DNA of 30,351 nt from a virus: positions 1 to 30,351 of the IMG/VR virus record IMGVR_UViG_3300042900_000613; one strand, 5' to 3'. Below the pieces are notes generated by a model, which worked only from the letters and a program-made list of their open reading frames with translations, searched no databases and was not told the DNA's origin. A program made the position numbers and the translations under genes. Of this stretch, positions 2,905 through 23,319 are shown in pieces. The first letter of the stretch is position 1. The number at the start of each line of letters is the position of its first letter.

Positions 2905-3594
2905 ATGTTTGGAACAACTTATACAGGCGGAATGTCATATCGTTCTGCAAGCGAAATTAATTCAGCAATGGGGCGTGTCTATGGACACATGAGCCTTGCT
3001 GTTATTGTATCAATGATTGTCAGTTATTTTGTAGGATCTAGTCCAGAGTTATTGGCATTCTTTTTTACAGGTGTGTTAAAGTGGATTGTAATCTTTGCAC
3101 CGCTAGTGGCAATTTTTGGCGTTGCTGTAATCCTAGGTAATAATCCAAGTAAGGGCGTAGCACAGTTATGCTTACATGGCTTTGCCGCATTGATGGGATT
3201 GAGTTTTGCTACAATCTTTGCAGTGTTCACTATGGGCAGTATTGTGTCAGCGTTTATGGGTGCGGCCATCCTGTTTGGTGTTATGAGTGGCTATGGCTAC
3301 TTTACCAAACAGAGTCTAGACAACGTTGGCAAGTTTATGTTTGTTGGTTTAATTGCAATCATCATTGCCAGTATTGTTAATATCTTTATTGGATCAACTG
3401 TGATGCAGATGGTAATCTCAGCACTGGCAATTATCATCTTCCTAGGCCTCACTGCTTACGATACACAGAAGATTCGTGAAGAACTTAGTGTAGAAGCCAG
3501 TGATGTTGCAGAAGTACGTGGTGCTCTGACTTTGTACATGGACTTTATTAACTTGTTTATTAACCTGTTACAACTGTTTGGAGATCGTAAATGA
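2905..3594 (+). CDS. Bax inhibitor-1 / YccA / TMBIM family membrane protein
   Basis: A polytopic inner-membrane protein with about seven hydrophobic segments between residues 28 and 225. The family signature is clear near the C-terminus: LTAYDTQKIRE with D186, and YMDFINLFINLL with D213. These match the two aspartates (D171 and D195) that form the pH-sensing latch of Bacillus YetJ, a calcium leak channel of this family. At 229 residues it is full length. AAGGAG lies 6 bases before the ATG. It overlaps the next gene at TGATG, so the two are translationally coupled. In the phage it may tune membrane calcium/pH homeostasis or delay host death or lysis; that role is inference. Confidence 0.9.
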   Translation: MFGTTYTGGMSYRSASEINSAMGRVYGHMSLAVIVSMIVSYFVGSSPELLAFFFTGVLKWIVIFAPLVAIFGVAVILGNNPSKGVAQLCLHGFAALMGLSFATIFAVFTMGSIVSAFMGAAILFGVMSGYGYFTKQSLDNVGKFMFVGLIAIIIASIVNIFIGSTVMQMVISALAIIIFLGLTAYDTQKIREELSVEASDVAEVRGALTLYMDFINLFINLLQLFGDRK

Positions 3595-4895: not shown

Positions 4896-5900
4896 GTGAA
4901 CAAACTACTAGCAATTTTACTAGCCGCAGTGACAATGTCAGCGCAAGCCGCAGACATTACTGGAGCAGGCGCTACATTTCCATTCCCAATCTATGCCAAG
5001 TGGGCTGAAGGCTACAAAAAAGCCACAGGTACAGGCATGAACTATCAAAGCATTGGATCATCAGGTGGTATTAGACAAATCAACGCAAAGACCGTAGACT
5101 TTGGTGCTACAGACGCACCAGTAAGCGGTGAGAACTTGGACAAGATGGGTCAGGTTCAATTTCCTGCTATCATTGGCGGAACAGTTCCAGTAGTAAACTT
5201 AGATGGTTTCAAGCCAGGCGAACTACGCATCACTGGTCCAGTTATGGCTGAAGTGTTTATGGGCAACATTGCCAAGTGGAATGATCCTAAACTTCAAGCA
5301 TTGAATCCAGGTAAACAACTACCAGATCAGCCTATTACTATTGTACATCGTGCTGATGGTTCAGGCACAACATTCAACTGGACAGACTATTTGAGCACTG
5401 TTAGCCCAGAGTGGCTACAGCGTGTGGGTCGAGGCGCTGCTGTTAAGTGGCCTGCTGCTAGTTCAGTAGGTGGTAAAGGCAACGAAGGTATTGCAGCCAA
5501 TGTGAACAGAATCAAAGGCTCAATTGGTTATGTAGAGTATGCTTATGTTAAGAAAAACAACATGACATTCCTACAACTACAAAACAAAAGTGGCAAGTAT
5601 GTTAGTCCAGATGACCTAACATTTGCCGCAGCCGCAGACGGTGCTGATTGGTTCTCAGTTCCTGGTATGGGACTGAGTATTGTGGATCAAAAGAATCCCA
5701 ATGCTTGGCCAGTGAGTTCAGCCAGTTTCATCATTATGTACAAGACTCCTGTTAACAAAGCCAACAGTGATGAAGTGTTAAAGTTCTTTGACTGGGCATT
5801 CAAGAATGGCAAGAAAGATGCCGCAGACTTAGATTATGTGGCACTACCCGACACACTAACAAAGCAGATTCGTGAGCGTGTTTGGACACAAATTAAATAA
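4896..5900 (+). CDS. pstS: Phosphate-binding periplasmic protein PstS
   Basis: High-affinity phosphate receptor feeding the host PstCAB transporter. It starts with GTG at 4896 behind AAGGAGA. Residues 1-18 are a Sec signal peptide ending AQA, followed by the family start ADITGAGATFPFPIY. Phosphate-binding segments are present in order: GATFP, SIGSSGG, DFGATDAP, and RADGSGTTF with its Arg-Asp-Gly-Ser-Gly-Thr cluster. The length, 334 residues, matches bacterial PstS (about 346 in E. coli) and no frame damage is seen. It sits directly behind an apparent pho box, so it is probably induced under phosphate starvation. No other pst gene is nearby, as usual for phage copies that work with the host permease. 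Confidence 0.96.
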   Translation: MNKLLAILLAAVTMSAQAADITGAGATFPFPIYAKWAEGYKKATGTGMNYQSIGSSGGIRQINAKTVDFGATDAPVSGENLDKMGQVQFPAIIGGTVPVVNLDGFKPGELRITGPVMAEVFMGNIAKWNDPKLQALNPGKQLPDQPITIVHRADGSGTTFNWTDYLSTVSPEWLQRVGRGAAVKWPAASSVGGKGNEGIAANVNRIKGSIGYVEYAYVKKNNMTFLQLQNKSGKYVSPDDLTFAAAADGADWFSVPGMGLSIVDQKNPNAWPVSSASFIIMYKTPVNKANSDEVLKFFDWAFKNGKKDAADLDYVALPDTLTKQIRERVWTQIK

Positions 5901-13524: not shown

Positions 13525-13553
13525 TTGACTTAGCAGTAAATAGGTGCTATAAT
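13525..13553 (+). promoter_or_regulatory. Strong sigma70-type promoter with extended -10
   Basis: TTGACT (13525-13530), 17-base spacer, TATAAT (13548-13553) preceded by TGC, an extended -10. The start should fall near 13560, giving a leader of about 26 bases with AGGAG (13574-13578) placed 7 bases before ATG 13586. Confidence 0.8.
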
Positions 13554-13585: not shown

Positions 13586-14770
13586 ATGGCAACTAAACTC
13601 AAAAAAGAATCTATCGCACTTCGTGAAAAAGCCAAACGTGACTACAGTCCAAGTTGGGTAGGTTGTGAAGCGTGGGATGAGAATCAGTTTCTGCGTTATT
13701 TCCACAGTGCCATGAAGTACTATCGTATGGAGGCTTCCGGTAAAGAACTCAAAGTTAAAGTTATTGACTGGATGGGCAAAAATGGCTACGACAAGAAGAC
13801 CATTGCATCCTTTAAAAAAACCAAAGACAATCGTTGCTCGCTGACTGTAGGTTCAATTGCTGCCTGCTTGCTCAAAGGCATGCAGAGCACACGTCCGGAC
13901 TTTAACAATGGTCGTGACACTGCTACTTGGTTAAGTGCAGAAATTGCTAAAATTATTGATGAAGGCAAGAACGATATCGACGAAGATGCTGTCAAGGCCG
14001 AGGCAGATGCTAACAAGGCTATAGTTTATGTGCCAACTATTCAAGAACGTACTCGAGATGCCGCATTGTTGATGACAGAAGAAATTGAAGATGCATACGA
14101 AAGTTATCAAACTGATCCTGAGAACTTTGATCCCAAAGCATTCAAAATGCTGAACTTGCTCAAAGGCAAAGGTGCCAAGGCTGCTCATGCACGTATCATC
14201 CGTGATTTCTATGCCGGCGATCTTACAGAGTTGAACGAGTTGGCCAGTGGTGATGGTGACGAGCAGTTGAAAGAAGGCTACAAGCATCGTACTCGTAAGC
14301 AGATCAAGAACTTTATTGCGTTCCTGCAAGAGATTGAATCGGCTTGCAACATGCTGATGCAAGAAGCCAAAGTTAACAAGAAGCCCCGTAAAACCAAAGC
14401 AGTTAGCAAGGACAAATTGATTGCTAAACTCAAGTTCAAGAAGACTGATGAGCCTTTAAAACTGGTCAGTGTCAACCCTGCAGACATCATTGGTGCTCAG
14501 GAACTGTGGGTGTTTAATAGCAAAACTCGCAAGTTGGGCAAGTATGTTGCAGAGGAGTTTAAAGAATTAGGTGTTAAGGGCACTACAATCACAGGTTTTA
14601 GTGAGATGAAATCTGTGCAAAAGACTCTGCGCAAGCCTGCAGAACAGTTAGCGGCCTTTAAAGCAGCCGGCAAAGTAGTGCTACGCAAGTTCCTTGAAGA
14701 CATCAACGCTGTAGATACCAAAATGAACGGTCGCTTAAACGAAGAAACGCTGTTGCTCAAAGTAGCCTAA
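13586..14770 (+). CDS. Conserved phage protein, helical, Lys-rich; function unknown
   Basis: A 394-residue soluble protein with mostly charged helices, a strong promoter and a good ribosome binding site, so it is probably made early and in quantity. The C-terminal third has a beta-rich patch, E-L-W-V-F-N-S-K-T-R-K-L-G-K-Y, followed by G-T-T-I-T-G-F and S-V-Q-K-T-L-R-K-P-A-E-Q, which I recognise as a pattern shared by an uncharacterised protein of T4-like cyano- and other aquatic phages. A Lys-rich linker (about residues 262-285) joins the halves. No enzyme motif, signal peptide or membrane segment was seen. A nucleic-acid-associated role would fit the charge but is not shown. Confidence 0.8.
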   Translation: MATKLKKESIALREKAKRDYSPSWVGCEAWDENQFLRYFHSAMKYYRMEASGKELKVKVIDWMGKNGYDKKTIASFKKTKDNRCSLTVGSIAACLLKGMQSTRPDFNNGRDTATWLSAEIAKIIDEGKNDIDEDAVKAEADANKAIVYVPTIQERTRDAALLMTEEIEDAYESYQTDPENFDPKAFKMLNLLKGKGAKAAHARIIRDFYAGDLTELNELASGDGDEQLKEGYKHRTRKQIKNFIAFLQEIESACNMLMQEAKVNKKPRKTKAVSKDKLIAKLKFKKTDEPLKLVSVNPADIIGAQELWVFNSKTRKLGKYVAEEFKELGVKGTTITGFSEMKSVQKTLRKPAEQLAAFKAAGKVVLRKFLEDINAVDTKMNGRLNEETLLLKVA

Positions 14771-14787
14771 CTGAGATCAAACATGGG

Positions 14788-14812
14788 TTAAATACTCCAC
14801 TAAGGAGTATTT
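14788..14812 (+). promoter_or_regulatory. Hairpin hiding the ribosome binding site, with late box in its left arm
   Basis: AAATACTCC (14790-14798) and GGAGTATTT (14804-14812) form a perfect 9-base stem with a 5-base loop. The right arm holds the GGAG that serves ATG 14816. TTAAATAC (14788-14795), a late-promoter candidate, overlaps the left arm, so a transcript begun there (about 14800) would lack that arm and leave the site free. It could also act as a terminator for the gene before it, though the T run is short. Confidence 0.6.
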
Positions 14813-14815
14813 CTC

Positions 14816-15139
14816 ATGGGCGCAGGAGTAGCATCAGCAGATGCATTTAGAAACATCATAGTACATCCAGGGCATCATTACATTGGTGCTGACTCAACTG
14901 ACAGTGCTGTACAGTTGACCGCAGGATCCGGCATTGATCTAGAAGTAGATGTACACAGCAAAGAAATAATCTTTCACGGGACAAATTGTCTCAAATGTCT
15001 CAGTAAAGATGAAATTCTCAGCATTGAAAATCCACAGTTGGGCCAGTTGTTTGCAGTCAAACACAATGACACAATATCCGCACTCGCACTATTCAATGGT
15101 GTAAATTGGTCAAAAGTAGATCTAACATCTACTCTATAG
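14816..15139 (+). CDS. Small beta-rich structural/fibre-type protein
   Basis: A 107-residue protein with alternating beta-strand pattern: V-H-P-G-H-H-Y-I-G-A-D-S, then Q-L-T-A-G-S-G-I-D-L-E-V-D and a C-terminal L-F-N-G-V-N-W-S-K-V-D. The T-A-G-S-G-I-x-L segment is a frequent element of phage fibre proteins and also appears in the giant fibre downstream (A-A-G-S-G-I-N-I). It lies directly before a longer fibre gene. It is probably a virion component or a short fibre accessory; no specific homologue was recognised. Translation starts at ATG 14816, 8 bases after GGAG in the hairpin. Confidence 0.6.
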   Translation: MGAGVASADAFRNIIVHPGHHYIGADSTDSAVQLTAGSGIDLEVDVHSKEIIFHGTNCLKCLSKDEILSIENPQLGQLFAVKHNDTISALALFNGVNWSKVDLTSTL

Positions 15140-15142
15140 GCG

Positions 15143-15150
15143 TATAAATA
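15143..15150 (+). promoter_or_regulatory. T4-type late promoter (exact TATAAATA)
   Basis: TATAAATA in the 30-base gap before the fibre gene at 15170 is an exact match to the T4 late-promoter consensus. It is followed by TATACAGT (15149-15156), the same half-site seen at the promoters at 496-520 and 17038-17056. AGGG (15161-15164) is 5 bases before the ATG. Confidence 0.65.
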
Positions 15151-15169: not shown

Positions 15170-16462
15170 ATGGAAAACAATATAACATTCACTGGCAATA
15201 CTCAAAGAGAATTGGACGGTCAAGGGCTACTTTTTACCAGTGGAAACACTACAAAACACTTCATTATGCGTGAGGGAAATTTGTGGGCCAACACTAATAT
15301 TAATCTAACATCGGGATATGGGCTGTTGTATAACAATACGCTGGTTCTAAAACAAAATGAACTAGGCAGTACTGTTGTCAAAAGCAATCTTAAAGAAGTA
15401 GGTATTCTTAAGAATCTCACAGTGGGCGGGCATGCTAATTTAGGAAATACACTTAAAGTAGACAGTGATTTTCGACGTGTTGGTATTGGTACTGATGCTC
15501 CTAATGCTGGCCTCAGTGTTGTAGACAACGGAGTTGAACTGGTTATCGGTAGTCATAAAAATGACACTGGCAAAATTGGAACTTACACCGCTGATGATCT
15601 TGTGTTGGTAACTGACAATACTGATAGATTACTGATCACTAGATCAGGCGAAGTCATAGTTGGTCATACTAAATTTAAAAACGGTGTGCTGCGAGTACAT
15701 GGTAAAATCATTGCCGACAGCATAGAAACCAGCAATCGAAATAACAAAGCAATTGAATTTATTGCACCAGACTGGCACACTGAACCAGTAACTACCGGAT
15801 TAGTATGGTTAGGTTCGGGCAAACGATCATTGACTTTTGAAGTAGATCCTGACAGACTGGTCAGTACAGAAATTATAGACTTGGCCAAAGATCGATACTA
15901 CTGTGTCGACGGCGCCATGGTTATTAGTAAAAATACACTGGGTGCTACTGTCACTGAATCAAGTTTGACTAAATTAGGCACACTGCAAAATTTATCAGTC
16001 TACGGCACAGTCAAGTTTGACAGCAAAGGCGAAGTGTTGACGTTTGATAAAGGTTTACATTTAACCAGCAACAACAATACTATCAGTTTCGATTCTCAAG
16101 GTGTAAAAACATCCAACAGTTTTGAAGTTACTGTGGATGGAGAATCAGAAATCACAGTCAGTGCCGCAGGACATATTTCCATTGGCAATCGACATAACAC
16201 CAACAGAGTTGTATCAGTGTATGGACAACTAAGTGTAGGTGTTCGTCATCCAGATCCCACAGTTAGTTTCACCACTGCAGGCACTATGAGTTTTGCTGGA
16301 AAAAAATTCATAACTGGGGACAGCGTACCAGTATCAGGACAATTCAACAAAGGAGATATTTGTTGGAATATTGATCCCAAAATTAGTGATTATGTTGGTT
16401 GGGTATGTGTGATGTCTGGAACACCTGGACAATGGGAACCATTTGGTGCAATCGGAAAATGA
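15170..16462 (+). CDS. Tail-fibre/structural protein with internal duplication
   Basis: A 430-residue beta-rich protein with the hallmarks of phage fibre shafts: V-G-I-G-T-D-A-P-N-A-G-L-S-V near residue 105, repeated short strand-turn units, and a C-terminal segment G-D-I-C-W-N-I-D-P-K followed by G-W-V-C-V-M-S-G-T-P-G-Q-W, which is common at the end of phage tail proteins. A segment near residues 54-85 (L-V-L-K-Q-N-E-L-G-S-T-V-V-K-S-N-L) is repeated near 249-280 (M-V-I-S-K-N-T-L-G-A-T-V-T-E-S-S-L). It follows an exact T4-type late promoter. It probably forms a trimeric receptor-binding or accessory fibre. Its end overlaps the next gene. Confidence 0.8.
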   Translation: MENNITFTGNTQRELDGQGLLFTSGNTTKHFIMREGNLWANTNINLTSGYGLLYNNTLVLKQNELGSTVVKSNLKEVGILKNLTVGGHANLGNTLKVDSDFRRVGIGTDAPNAGLSVVDNGVELVIGSHKNDTGKIGTYTADDLVLVTDNTDRLLITRSGEVIVGHTKFKNGVLRVHGKIIADSIETSNRNNKAIEFIAPDWHTEPVTTGLVWLGSGKRSLTFEVDPDRLVSTEIIDLAKDRYYCVDGAMVISKNTLGATVTESSLTKLGTLQNLSVYGTVKFDSKGEVLTFDKGLHLTSNNNTISFDSQGVKTSNSFEVTVDGESEITVSAAGHISIGNRHNTNRVVSVYGQLSVGVRHPDPTVSFTTAGTMSFAGKKFITGDSVPVSGQFNKGDICWNIDPKISDYVGWVCVMSGTPGQWEPFGAIGK

Positions 16463-17134: not shown

Positions 17135-17641
17135 ATGGCAAATCTACAACCCGTACTTTATAAGTACACTTCGACAAAAGAATATCACGACGCATTTCCC
17201 TGTGCTTACAGGCAATGGAGAAGTGATAGTCACTGTAATTTAATTCACGGCTATTCATTTAGCATGAAGTTTTACTTTGGCACCAACAACCTAGACGTTC
17301 GCAATTGGGCGGCCGACTATGGTGGTTTAAAAGAACTAAAGAAAACACTAGAAGATCAATTTGATCATACACTAATTGTTGCACAAGATGATCCAGAAAT
17401 GGCTACATTCAAATTGCTACAAGAAAAGAATATGGCCAAGATTGTAGTGTTACCTCGTCTAGGTTGTGAAGGCCTTAGCGACATGCTCTACAAATATGTC
17501 AATGGCGTTTACATTCCAGAGATGTGGGGTAAGGGTGAAGCAGAACGCCTGTGGTGCTATCGTGTAGAAGTCCGTGAAACACAAGCCAATATGGCGTTCC
17601 GTGAAGGGCACCGTGAATGGAATGAAGACTTGTTTGAATGA
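17135..17641 (+). CDS. QueD/6-carboxytetrahydropterin synthase-like enzyme, variant metal site
   Basis: Belongs to the QueD/PTPS fold: the N-terminal segment F-P-C-A-Y-R-Q-W-R leads to S-H-C-N-L-I-H-G-Y, then D-Y-G-G-L-K-E-L-K and F-D-H-T-L-I-V, then G-C-E-G-L-S and V-E-V-R-E-T. QueD normally binds zinc with three histidines, one in A-A-H-R and two in H-G-H. Here two of those positions are Tyr (Y25, Y40); H38 and the catalytic-type C34 remain, and H33 could be a substitute ligand. I recall this H-G-Y form in other phages, so it seems a subfamily rather than a mutation. GGAG lies 8 bases before the ATG, and the gene is coupled to kdsA by ATGA. It probably acts in deazaguanine or pterin synthesis. 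Confidence 0.82.
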
Positions 17642-18462
17642 TTAATATTAATAATATTTCTATAGGATTAGGACAGGATCTTGCATTAATTGCAGGTCCC
17701 TGTCAAATTGAAAGCATGAGTCATGCTTTAGATACTGCAGGACATATTAGTGAAATTTGCAAAAAGGTAGGCTTAAAGTTTATCTACAAAAGCAGTTTTG
17801 ACAAGGCCAATCGATCAAGTATTTCAACACAGCGAGGTCTAGGAATTGACGAAGGACTACAGATTCTCAATGCTGTTAAACATCAATTAGGAGTGCCTGT
17901 TTTAACTGACATTCACGAAAGTTATCAGGCAGAGTTGTGTGCTAACGCTGGCATTGATGTTTTGCAGATCCCAGCGTTTCTCTGCAGGCAAACTGACCTA
18001 TTGTTGGCTGCAGGAGAAACAGGATGTGCCATTAATGTTAAAAAAGGTCAATTCCTTGCACCTCATGACATGAAAAATGTTGCAGATAAAATTGCATCAA
18101 CGGGCAATAAACGAATAATGCTTTGTGAAAGAGGATACACTCATGGATATAATAATCTTGTTGTCGATATGCGTAGTCTACCCATTATGGCAAGCACTGG
18201 CTATCCAGTGGTCTTTGATGCCACACATTCTGTTCAACAGCCTGGAGGAATGGGAGAAAGATCTGGCGGAGATAGGACCATGGTCCCGTACTTGGCGAGA
18301 GCTGCTGTAGCCACAGGCTCAGTCGCTGCTGTGTTTATGGAATGTCATGAAGATCCGGATCGAGCCCCTAGCGATGGACCTAATATGATTCCGCTGTCTC
18401 AGTTAGAATCGATAATAACACAATTGAAACAAATACATCAATTAACTCAAAATTATGAATAA
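17638..18462 (+). CDS. kdsA: 3-deoxy-8-phosphooctulonate synthase (metal-dependent KdsA)
   Basis: Condenses phosphoenolpyruvate with arabinose-5-phosphate to Kdo-8-phosphate, the first committed step to the Kdo of lipopolysaccharide. Family segments are in order: A-G-P-C-Q-I-E-S with C22, [33 protein letters not shown], and [10 protein letters not shown]. The cysteine in G-P-C marks the metal-dependent class; the E. coli enzyme has Asn there. At 274 residues it is full length. The ATG overlaps the stop of the QueD-like gene, and its own end overlaps the next glycosyltransferase by 8 bases, so the genes are cotranslated. KdsA is known from some marine cyanophages. Confidence 0.95.
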
Positions 18463-22105: not shown

Positions 22106-22663
22106 ATGACATATAATTTTATTCGGCATTATATATTAGAAGGCAAATCGAACACATTAGTGCATCTTAAATTGCCGTATGACCGCAATGATTTGGCACC
22201 GGTTAAAAGCAAGGAAACCATTGACTATCATTATGGTACATTGTATAAAGGATATGTTGATCGTTATAATACAGGCGAAGGTGATGCTGATTTTAACGAA
22301 GCAGGTGCTTTTTTACACAACATATATTTTGGACAGTTACAAAAACCCAACGGCGCCAATCCACCAACTGGCGCAGCATTGACATTTATAAACAAACACC
22401 ATAAAAGTGTTGATCAGTTCAAAGAAAAAATTACCAAAACAGCAATGGCAATACAAGGCTCAGGATGGGTGTATCTGGCCACTGATGGCAAAATCAAAAC
22501 AATCGTCAATCATGAAATTAAGAAAGACATTGTGCTGTTAATTGATTGGTGGGAACATGCTTGGGCATTAGATTATCAAGCAGACAAGAAAAAATATTTA
22601 GAAAACATTTGGAAAATTATAAACTATGATGTAATCAATGCAAGATTGTCTACAATCGGCTGA
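22106..22663 (+). CDS. Fe/Mn superoxide dismutase-like protein (shortened hairpin)
   Basis: Fe/Mn SODs turn superoxide into oxygen and hydrogen peroxide. The four metal ligands can be matched: H42 (D-Y-H-Y-G), H71 (G-A-F-L-H-N), D147 and H151 (D-W-W-E-H-A-W). Family context is also present: L-P-Y-D near the start, G-S-G-W-V-Y-L in the middle, and D-Y near the end. H42 and H71 are only 29 residues apart, against about 47 in E. coli SodB, so the N-terminal helical hairpin is shorter, and a second-shell His (H30 in SodB) is Leu here. Activity is plausible but not certain. It starts right after a late-like box; a terminator lies at 22698. Confidence 0.82.
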   Translation: MTYNFIRHYILEGKSNTLVHLKLPYDRNDLAPVKSKETIDYHYGTLYKGYVDRYNTGEGDADFNEAGAFLHNIYFGQLQKPNGANPPTGAALTFINKHHKSVDQFKEKITKTAMAIQGSGWVYLATDGKIKTIVNHEIKKDIVLLIDWWEHAWALDYQADKKKYLENIWKIINYDVINARLSTIG

Positions 22664-22995: not shown

Positions 22996-23319
22996 ATGAT
23001 AGAAATTACAGAATCAGCAAAGATCAAAATTTTAGATATCCTTGCAGAAGAAAATGATCCCACTATGTCATTGAGAACATTTGTACAAGGTGGCGGATGC
23101 AGTGGGTTCACTTATGGATTTACGCTGGACAAAGAGCATAACGAAGATGATTTTGAAATTTCGTTGGACAAATTTAAAGTTTTAGTAGACGCTATGAGTA
23201 TGCAGTACTTACAGGGCGCAGTGATAGATTATAAAGAAGATTTACATGGTTCTTCTTTTTCAATTAAAAATCCCAATGCACAGTCAACATGTGGTTGCGG
23301 ATCAAGTTTCGGAGTATAA
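22996..23319 (+). CDS. A-type Fe-S cluster carrier (IscA/ErpA family)
   Basis: Carries or inserts Fe-S clusters into target proteins. All three ligand cysteines are present: C35 in Q-G-G-G-C-S-G-F, and C99 and C101 in S-T-C-G-C-G-S-S-F. 107 residues, the typical size, with no N-terminal extension. GAGG (22984-22987) is 8 bases before the ATG. The fibre gene begins 2 bases after its stop, so structural and Fe-S genes share a transcript. Such carriers are known from cyanophages and other aquatic phages. Possible clients within this window include the two radical SAM enzymes, which need 4Fe-4S clusters; that link is inference. Confidence 0.93.

Follow-up and report, generated by a model that had tools for sequence, protein, structure and literature searches.

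A hairpin over a late-gene start site, with a putative late promoter inside it, at a conserved junction of T4-like phages

At one gene junction of T4-like phages early read-through RNA is very probably silenced in translation by a hairpin that late RNA would lack, as predicted from the sequence. The junction was found in a virus record of 30,351 bases, analysed over its whole length and called the window here; judged by its late box and by the PA5oct, phiM12 and Cr30 relatives of its 394-aa gene, the window is a T4-like phage fragment. The element would act as a timing insulator that separates a late gene from the early-type gene in front of it (Table 1). Polymerase from the sigma70 promoter at 13525-13553 would transcribe the phrog_11903 gene and, because no terminator intervenes, run into the next gene. 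In this long RNA positions 14782-14798 would pair with 14804-14818, and the late gene would stay untranslated because this pairing closes both its Shine-Dalgarno and its AUG. During late infection, transcription by a T4-type late RNA polymerase would start inside the hairpin, with its box at the 5' arm and its start at approximately 14800, and the resulting short RNA, without the 5' arm, would begin a few bases before an open Shine-Dalgarno. The late start site, the timing of the two promoters and the effect on translation are predictions.

Table 1. Features at and around the junction in the window
Feature	Position	Strand	Description
sigma70-type promoter	13525..13553	+	TTGACT-17-TATAAT, TG before the -10; would drive the phrog_11903 gene
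upstream gene	13586..14770	+	phrog_11903 family (E 6e-63), 394 aa, no known function
outer 5' arm CATGGG	14782..14787	+	pairs with 14813-14818 (RNA fold)
late-type box GTTAAATA	14787..14794	+	inside 5' arm; GATAAATA in relatives; probably weakened (alignment; box statistics)
inner 5' arm AAATACTCC	14790..14798	+	sequence; fold
loop ACTAA	14799..14803	+	T4 late promoter spacing (box start + 13) predicts a late start at about 14800
inner 3' arm GGAGTATTT	14804..14812	+	carries Shine-Dalgarno GGAG 14804-14807; sequence; fold
outer 3' arm CTCATG	14813..14818	+	includes start codon 14816-14818; fold
ORF behind hairpin	14816..15139	+	107 aa, orphan
perfect late box TATAAATA	15143..15150	+	belongs to next gene (15170); no strong hairpin, z 0.8
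virion-structural / fibre-type gene	15170..16462	+	phrog_6002, short-tail-fibre C-terminus

Architecture of the junction in the window

The strong promoter that a preliminary description of this DNA had placed before the upstream gene was borne out as a near-perfect sigma70 match (11 of 12 consensus positions), the best of its type in the region, and a promoter of the TTGAC-TATAAT type precedes the phrog_11903 gene in all 29 relatives printed. The gene is taken as early-type from this promoter. Relatives of its protein, from PA5oct, phiM12, Cr30 and others, share at most about 39% identity with it, and an AlphaFold model (mean pLDDT 63; confident for approximately residues 17-267 only) gave no significant match in the PDB. 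Host-like genes were also observed in the window, namely those for an ATP-dependent DNA ligase (538-1857), a Bax-inhibitor-like protein (2905-3594), a phosphate-binding protein (PBP; 4896-5900), a QueD-like protein (17135-17641), a DAHP/KDO8P synthase-family protein (17638-18462), an Fe/Mn superoxide dismutase (22106-22663) and an Fe-S assembly protein (22996-23319), the QueD-like and Bax-like names being given from sequence appearance only.

The hairpin lies about 20 nt past the stop codon of the upstream gene. Sequence and fold confirmed the perfect 9-base stem, closed by a 5-nt loop, that had been claimed over the GGAG of ATG 14816; what that description had missed was an outer stem of six pairs, formed across a 2-nt bulge (14788-14789), in which the start codon takes part as well. 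The folding energy of the 38-nt element is -16.9 kcal/mol, and in computed folds of the read-through RNA the Shine-Dalgarno and AUG are paired with sequence upstream of the late start. Opening of the start region costs 12.7 kcal/mol in the read-through RNA vs 3.5 kcal/mol in an RNA from 14800. With the upstream part shuffled the mean opening cost was 6.4 kcal/mol and 8 of 1000 shuffles were as high as 12.7 (z 3.35), in a test that shuffles only the sequence upstream of the assumed late start and thereby builds in part of the geometry that it detects. Perfect 9-bp hairpins numbered 4 in the 30-kb window vs a mean of 1.25 in shuffles; since the chance of such a hairpin in 30 kb is not small, the stem alone is unremarkable and the argument is carried by its position at the start site and its conservation.

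Early synthesis of a structural protein was what the hairpin had been proposed to prevent. The first gene behind it proved to be an orphan, with no relatives in PHROGs, Pfam, the PDB, phage records and collection or IMG/VR; pairwise comparison with the large fibre protein of the window gave a weak similarity (E 0.004), and the ORF looks like an insertion or recombination product. In relatives the fibre-type gene directly follows the hairpin; in the window this ORF lies between the two. The second gene, at 15170, is recognisably virion-structural, has its own TATAAATA and shares 41% identity with its homologue in locus L033, which is hairpin-controlled there. This second gene would escape silencing in read-through RNA unless transcription stops earlier.

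Conservation of the hairpin and its exchange with terminators

Hairpin, covariation, geometry, locus-specific conservation and exchange with terminators were all computed. A query with the upstream protein yielded 80 fetched loci, and a hairpin was called where closing of the start site depended on upstream sequence with z >= 3 vs shuffles. The first sample comprised 56 distinct junctions with a late box, the window included. Hairpins were called at 46 of these, and the other 10 all carried an intrinsic terminator, located after the stop codon of the upstream gene and before the late box; both devices occurred only in L021 and no junction had neither (Fisher p 3e-10, uncorrected for descent). 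A second sample, collected later with a different query and unused in framing the rule, added nine new junctions, all with a hairpin and without a terminator. Taken together, 65 distinct junctions have the same upstream gene followed by a gene with a NATAAATA box, and they divide into 54 with a hairpin only, 10 with a terminator only, 1 with both and 0 with neither, the start site being hidden by upstream RNA in 55/65. Control junctions (n=8), in which the next gene has a Shine-Dalgarno but no late box, gave z of -1.4 to 2.2 and no such closing.

A tree of the upstream gene requires approximately seven switches between hairpin and terminator. Common descent links the loci of both types, so independent swaps number about 7, far below 65; the exchange is nevertheless repeated. 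Among the terminator loci, L166 has kept the inner stem and lost the outer one, and of L021 and L028 one has an intact hairpin and the other a weakened one. The terminators of relatives sit upstream of the late box, separate from the hairpin over the ribosome binding site. This exchange is the most interesting part of the data and is evolutionarily unusual. An evenly poised interpretation is that insulation as such is under selection at a conserved early/late junction, with the hairpin (carrying the late promoter in an arm or in the loop) and the terminator interchangeable and repeatedly replaced, and with the hairpin of some members instead surrounding the AUG of a predicted leaderless late mRNA.

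Compensatory changes, proposed earlier as a check, were found in relatives: paired columns covary, with 32 double-change cells vs 16.3 after shuffling, and 81% of cells are paired vs 31-46% when the arms are slid against each other. The column pair next to the AUG, which in the window belongs to the outer arms, covaries as G-C in 27 sequences, A-U in 11 and G-U in 1. The late box is placed in the 5' arm in 46 of the 55 hairpins and in the loop in 9, the loop-type hairpins having an unrelated 5' arm further upstream (for example TCTCTCGT/ACGAGAGA in L036 and GGAGTCTCT/AGAGACTCC in L041). In none of the 55 does the 5' arm reach the predicted late start (box start + 13). In L149 and L068 the stem extends into coding sequence, and in L023, L024, L026 and L031 the AUG falls exactly at the predicted late start and is enclosed by a long stem, which suggests a leaderless late mRNA in these four. 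Leaderless or near-leaderless late mRNAs, in which the ATG follows the late box start by 13-16 nt and so lies no more than 3 nt from the predicted late start, are also predicted for L021, L028, L075 and G001 289445 / G002 298958. A further arrangement was observed in L248 around 3199-3275, where an intact class-A hairpin is followed by a 5-codon frame (MLNSA stop) and then by another late-type box and start; it may be a remnant of the device.

IMG/VR contains the motif GATAAATACTCNNNAGAGAGT 63 times, 61 of them directly behind a phrog_11903 homologue, and a scrambled control motif with the 3' arm reversed gave 5 matches. A search of 257 Gb of cellular genomes gave three matches, two without the phrog_11903 neighbour and one at the same junction in a contig that has this gene. 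The proteins that follow it begin differently (e.g. MTQLSIQDG, MALNIFEPLKF, MADNTIIPD and MANQFNSTD), and the nine downstream proteins checked match virion-structural and tail-fibre families. PA5oct, phiM12, Cr30, OC, DLP6 and BUCT-ZZ01, cultured phages that have the upstream gene, showed no such box and hairpin behind it on inspection by eye.

The use of the device elsewhere was assessed in two related large records, G001 and G002 (356 and 345 kb), in which 82 genes with a NATAAATA box gave a median z of 0.16. Genome-wide use was rejected, as most late genes lack a hairpin. The phrog_11903 junction ranks first by z in each record, and the device is special to certain junctions, not general. 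A loop-form hairpin with z 3.6-3.7 was observed at a second junction (G001 225592, minus strand, in L111; G002 231585, minus strand, in L093); there TATAAATA lies in the loop of CCTAGTA..TACTAGG and AGGAG is hidden, and the gene in front of this junction encodes a protein that ends like ClpP, judged by eye.

The late box of the window and alternative readings

A late-type box does overlap the left arm in the window as had been described, although the claimed TTAAATAC is better read as GTTAAATA, one mismatch from the GATAAATA of relatives and different from the T4-type late box NATAAATA at position 2. In G001 and G002, NATAAATA stands before genes in 58 of 147 occurrences (39.5%) and NTTAAATA in only 7 of 215 (3.3%), so that the latter is hardly enriched; for NCTAAATA the figure is 11 of 118 (9%). 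A GCTAAATA box together with a loop-type hairpin was found in L225 and L263. Because NTTAAATA so rarely precedes genes compared with NATAAATA, late initiation at approximately 14800 is possible in the window but uncertain, and may be weak or dead. The window retains an intact 'off' half, the predicted early silencing, and has an 'on' half that is possibly weak because its late box carries a substitution.

It is accordingly conceivable, if somewhat unlikely, that the device is half broken in the window, the hairpin silencing read-through while the mutated box gives no late start, so that expression of ORF 14816 would be low and the fibre gene would depend on its own TATAAATA at 15143. Consistent with such decay, the close relatives L002, L004 and L005 (95% identity in the upstream protein) have GATAAATA where the window has GTTAAATA, the substituted box is rare in gene context, the orphan ORF is interposed before the usual fibre gene, and the exact arm pair of the window was found in no other IMG/VR contig. 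The Shine-Dalgarno and the pairing are, however, well kept, and position-2 variants seem to be tolerated, as GCTAAATA is accompanied by a hairpin in L225 and L263 and NCTAAATA reaches 9% in context.

Termination, attenuation or RNA processing at the hairpin, by which the early transcript would be ended or cut, would suit its place right behind the upstream gene and the true terminators present at the same junction in other relatives. This is nonetheless very unlikely, as the stem runs into CTCATG without a U tract and the terminators of relatives lie apart from the ribosome-site hairpin, upstream of the box. An intrinsic terminator scan of the strand of the window hairpin found none, the stem having 4 G-C among its 9 pairs and no U tract.

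Highly improbable, too, is that the inverted repeat acts as DNA, either as a dyad for a regulator of the late promoter or as a second, divergent late promoter. Its overlap with the promoter, and the likeness of its 3' arm to the box complement in many relatives, speak for such a role, but in many the 3' arm is one base short (TATT-ATCC, TATTTCC) and hence forms no opposite-strand box, which was the ground for rejecting the divergent promoter. The arms of loop-type hairpins (L036, L041 and L038) moreover share no sequence with the box, and G-U pairs are frequent, occurring in 13 and 10 sequences at two pairs. Thermometers are likewise hairpins that close a Shine-Dalgarno, but a ligand- or temperature-sensing leader is scarcely credible here, since transcripts from a promoter inside the hairpin would lack the sensor, and Rfam models of riboswitch and thermometer families gave no match at E up to 1.

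Comparison with known systems

A handful of T-even genes are the documented cases of the T4 lysozyme-type switch; its logic recurs here as the rule at one junction in dozens of T4-like phages. It thereby becomes possible to test why phages shield late genes from early read-through, and late genes become recognisable and timeable from sequence in uncultured phages. An intrinsic terminator between early and late units, present at the same junction in 11/65 relatives, would serve the same end; it acts on transcription whereas the hairpin acts on translation, and the window has no terminator. In T4 soc, gene 49, I-TevI and segB and in Aeh1 mobE, which is described as a promoter-less cassette, late genes lie inside early or middle units and the longer RNA conceals their ribosome site (PMC3014915, PMC2988022). 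The logic of hiding is the same in these cases, and the genes are not homologous to those of the junction.

In T4 gene e, early read-through RNA folds over the ribosome site; the late promoters TATAAATA lie in the 5' arm and the loop, and transcripts that start at them do not contain the 5' arm (PMC3014915). With the same opening metric, T4 gene e gave 15-17 for the long vs 2-4 for the short and 7.5-8 for the shuffled RNA (z 3.7-4.3), and its core pairing AAATACC/GGTATT is similar to AAATACTCC/GGAGTATTT of the window. The gene e logic proposed earlier for the window is right in kind and finds its best support in relatives, which have a conserved sigma70 promoter, a NATAAATA box in the 5' arm or loop, a covarying stem and replacement by terminators; in the window itself the box is GTTAAATA and the first gene an orphan. 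The junction differs from gene e in that an orphan or fibre-type gene takes the place of lysozyme, the upstream gene is another one, there is one late box, not two, and the stem of relatives often extends over the AUG into coding sequence. The mechanism read from the device is of the known T4 e/soc/49/I-TevI type; what is new is the locus, and the clade that carries it has no cultured member.
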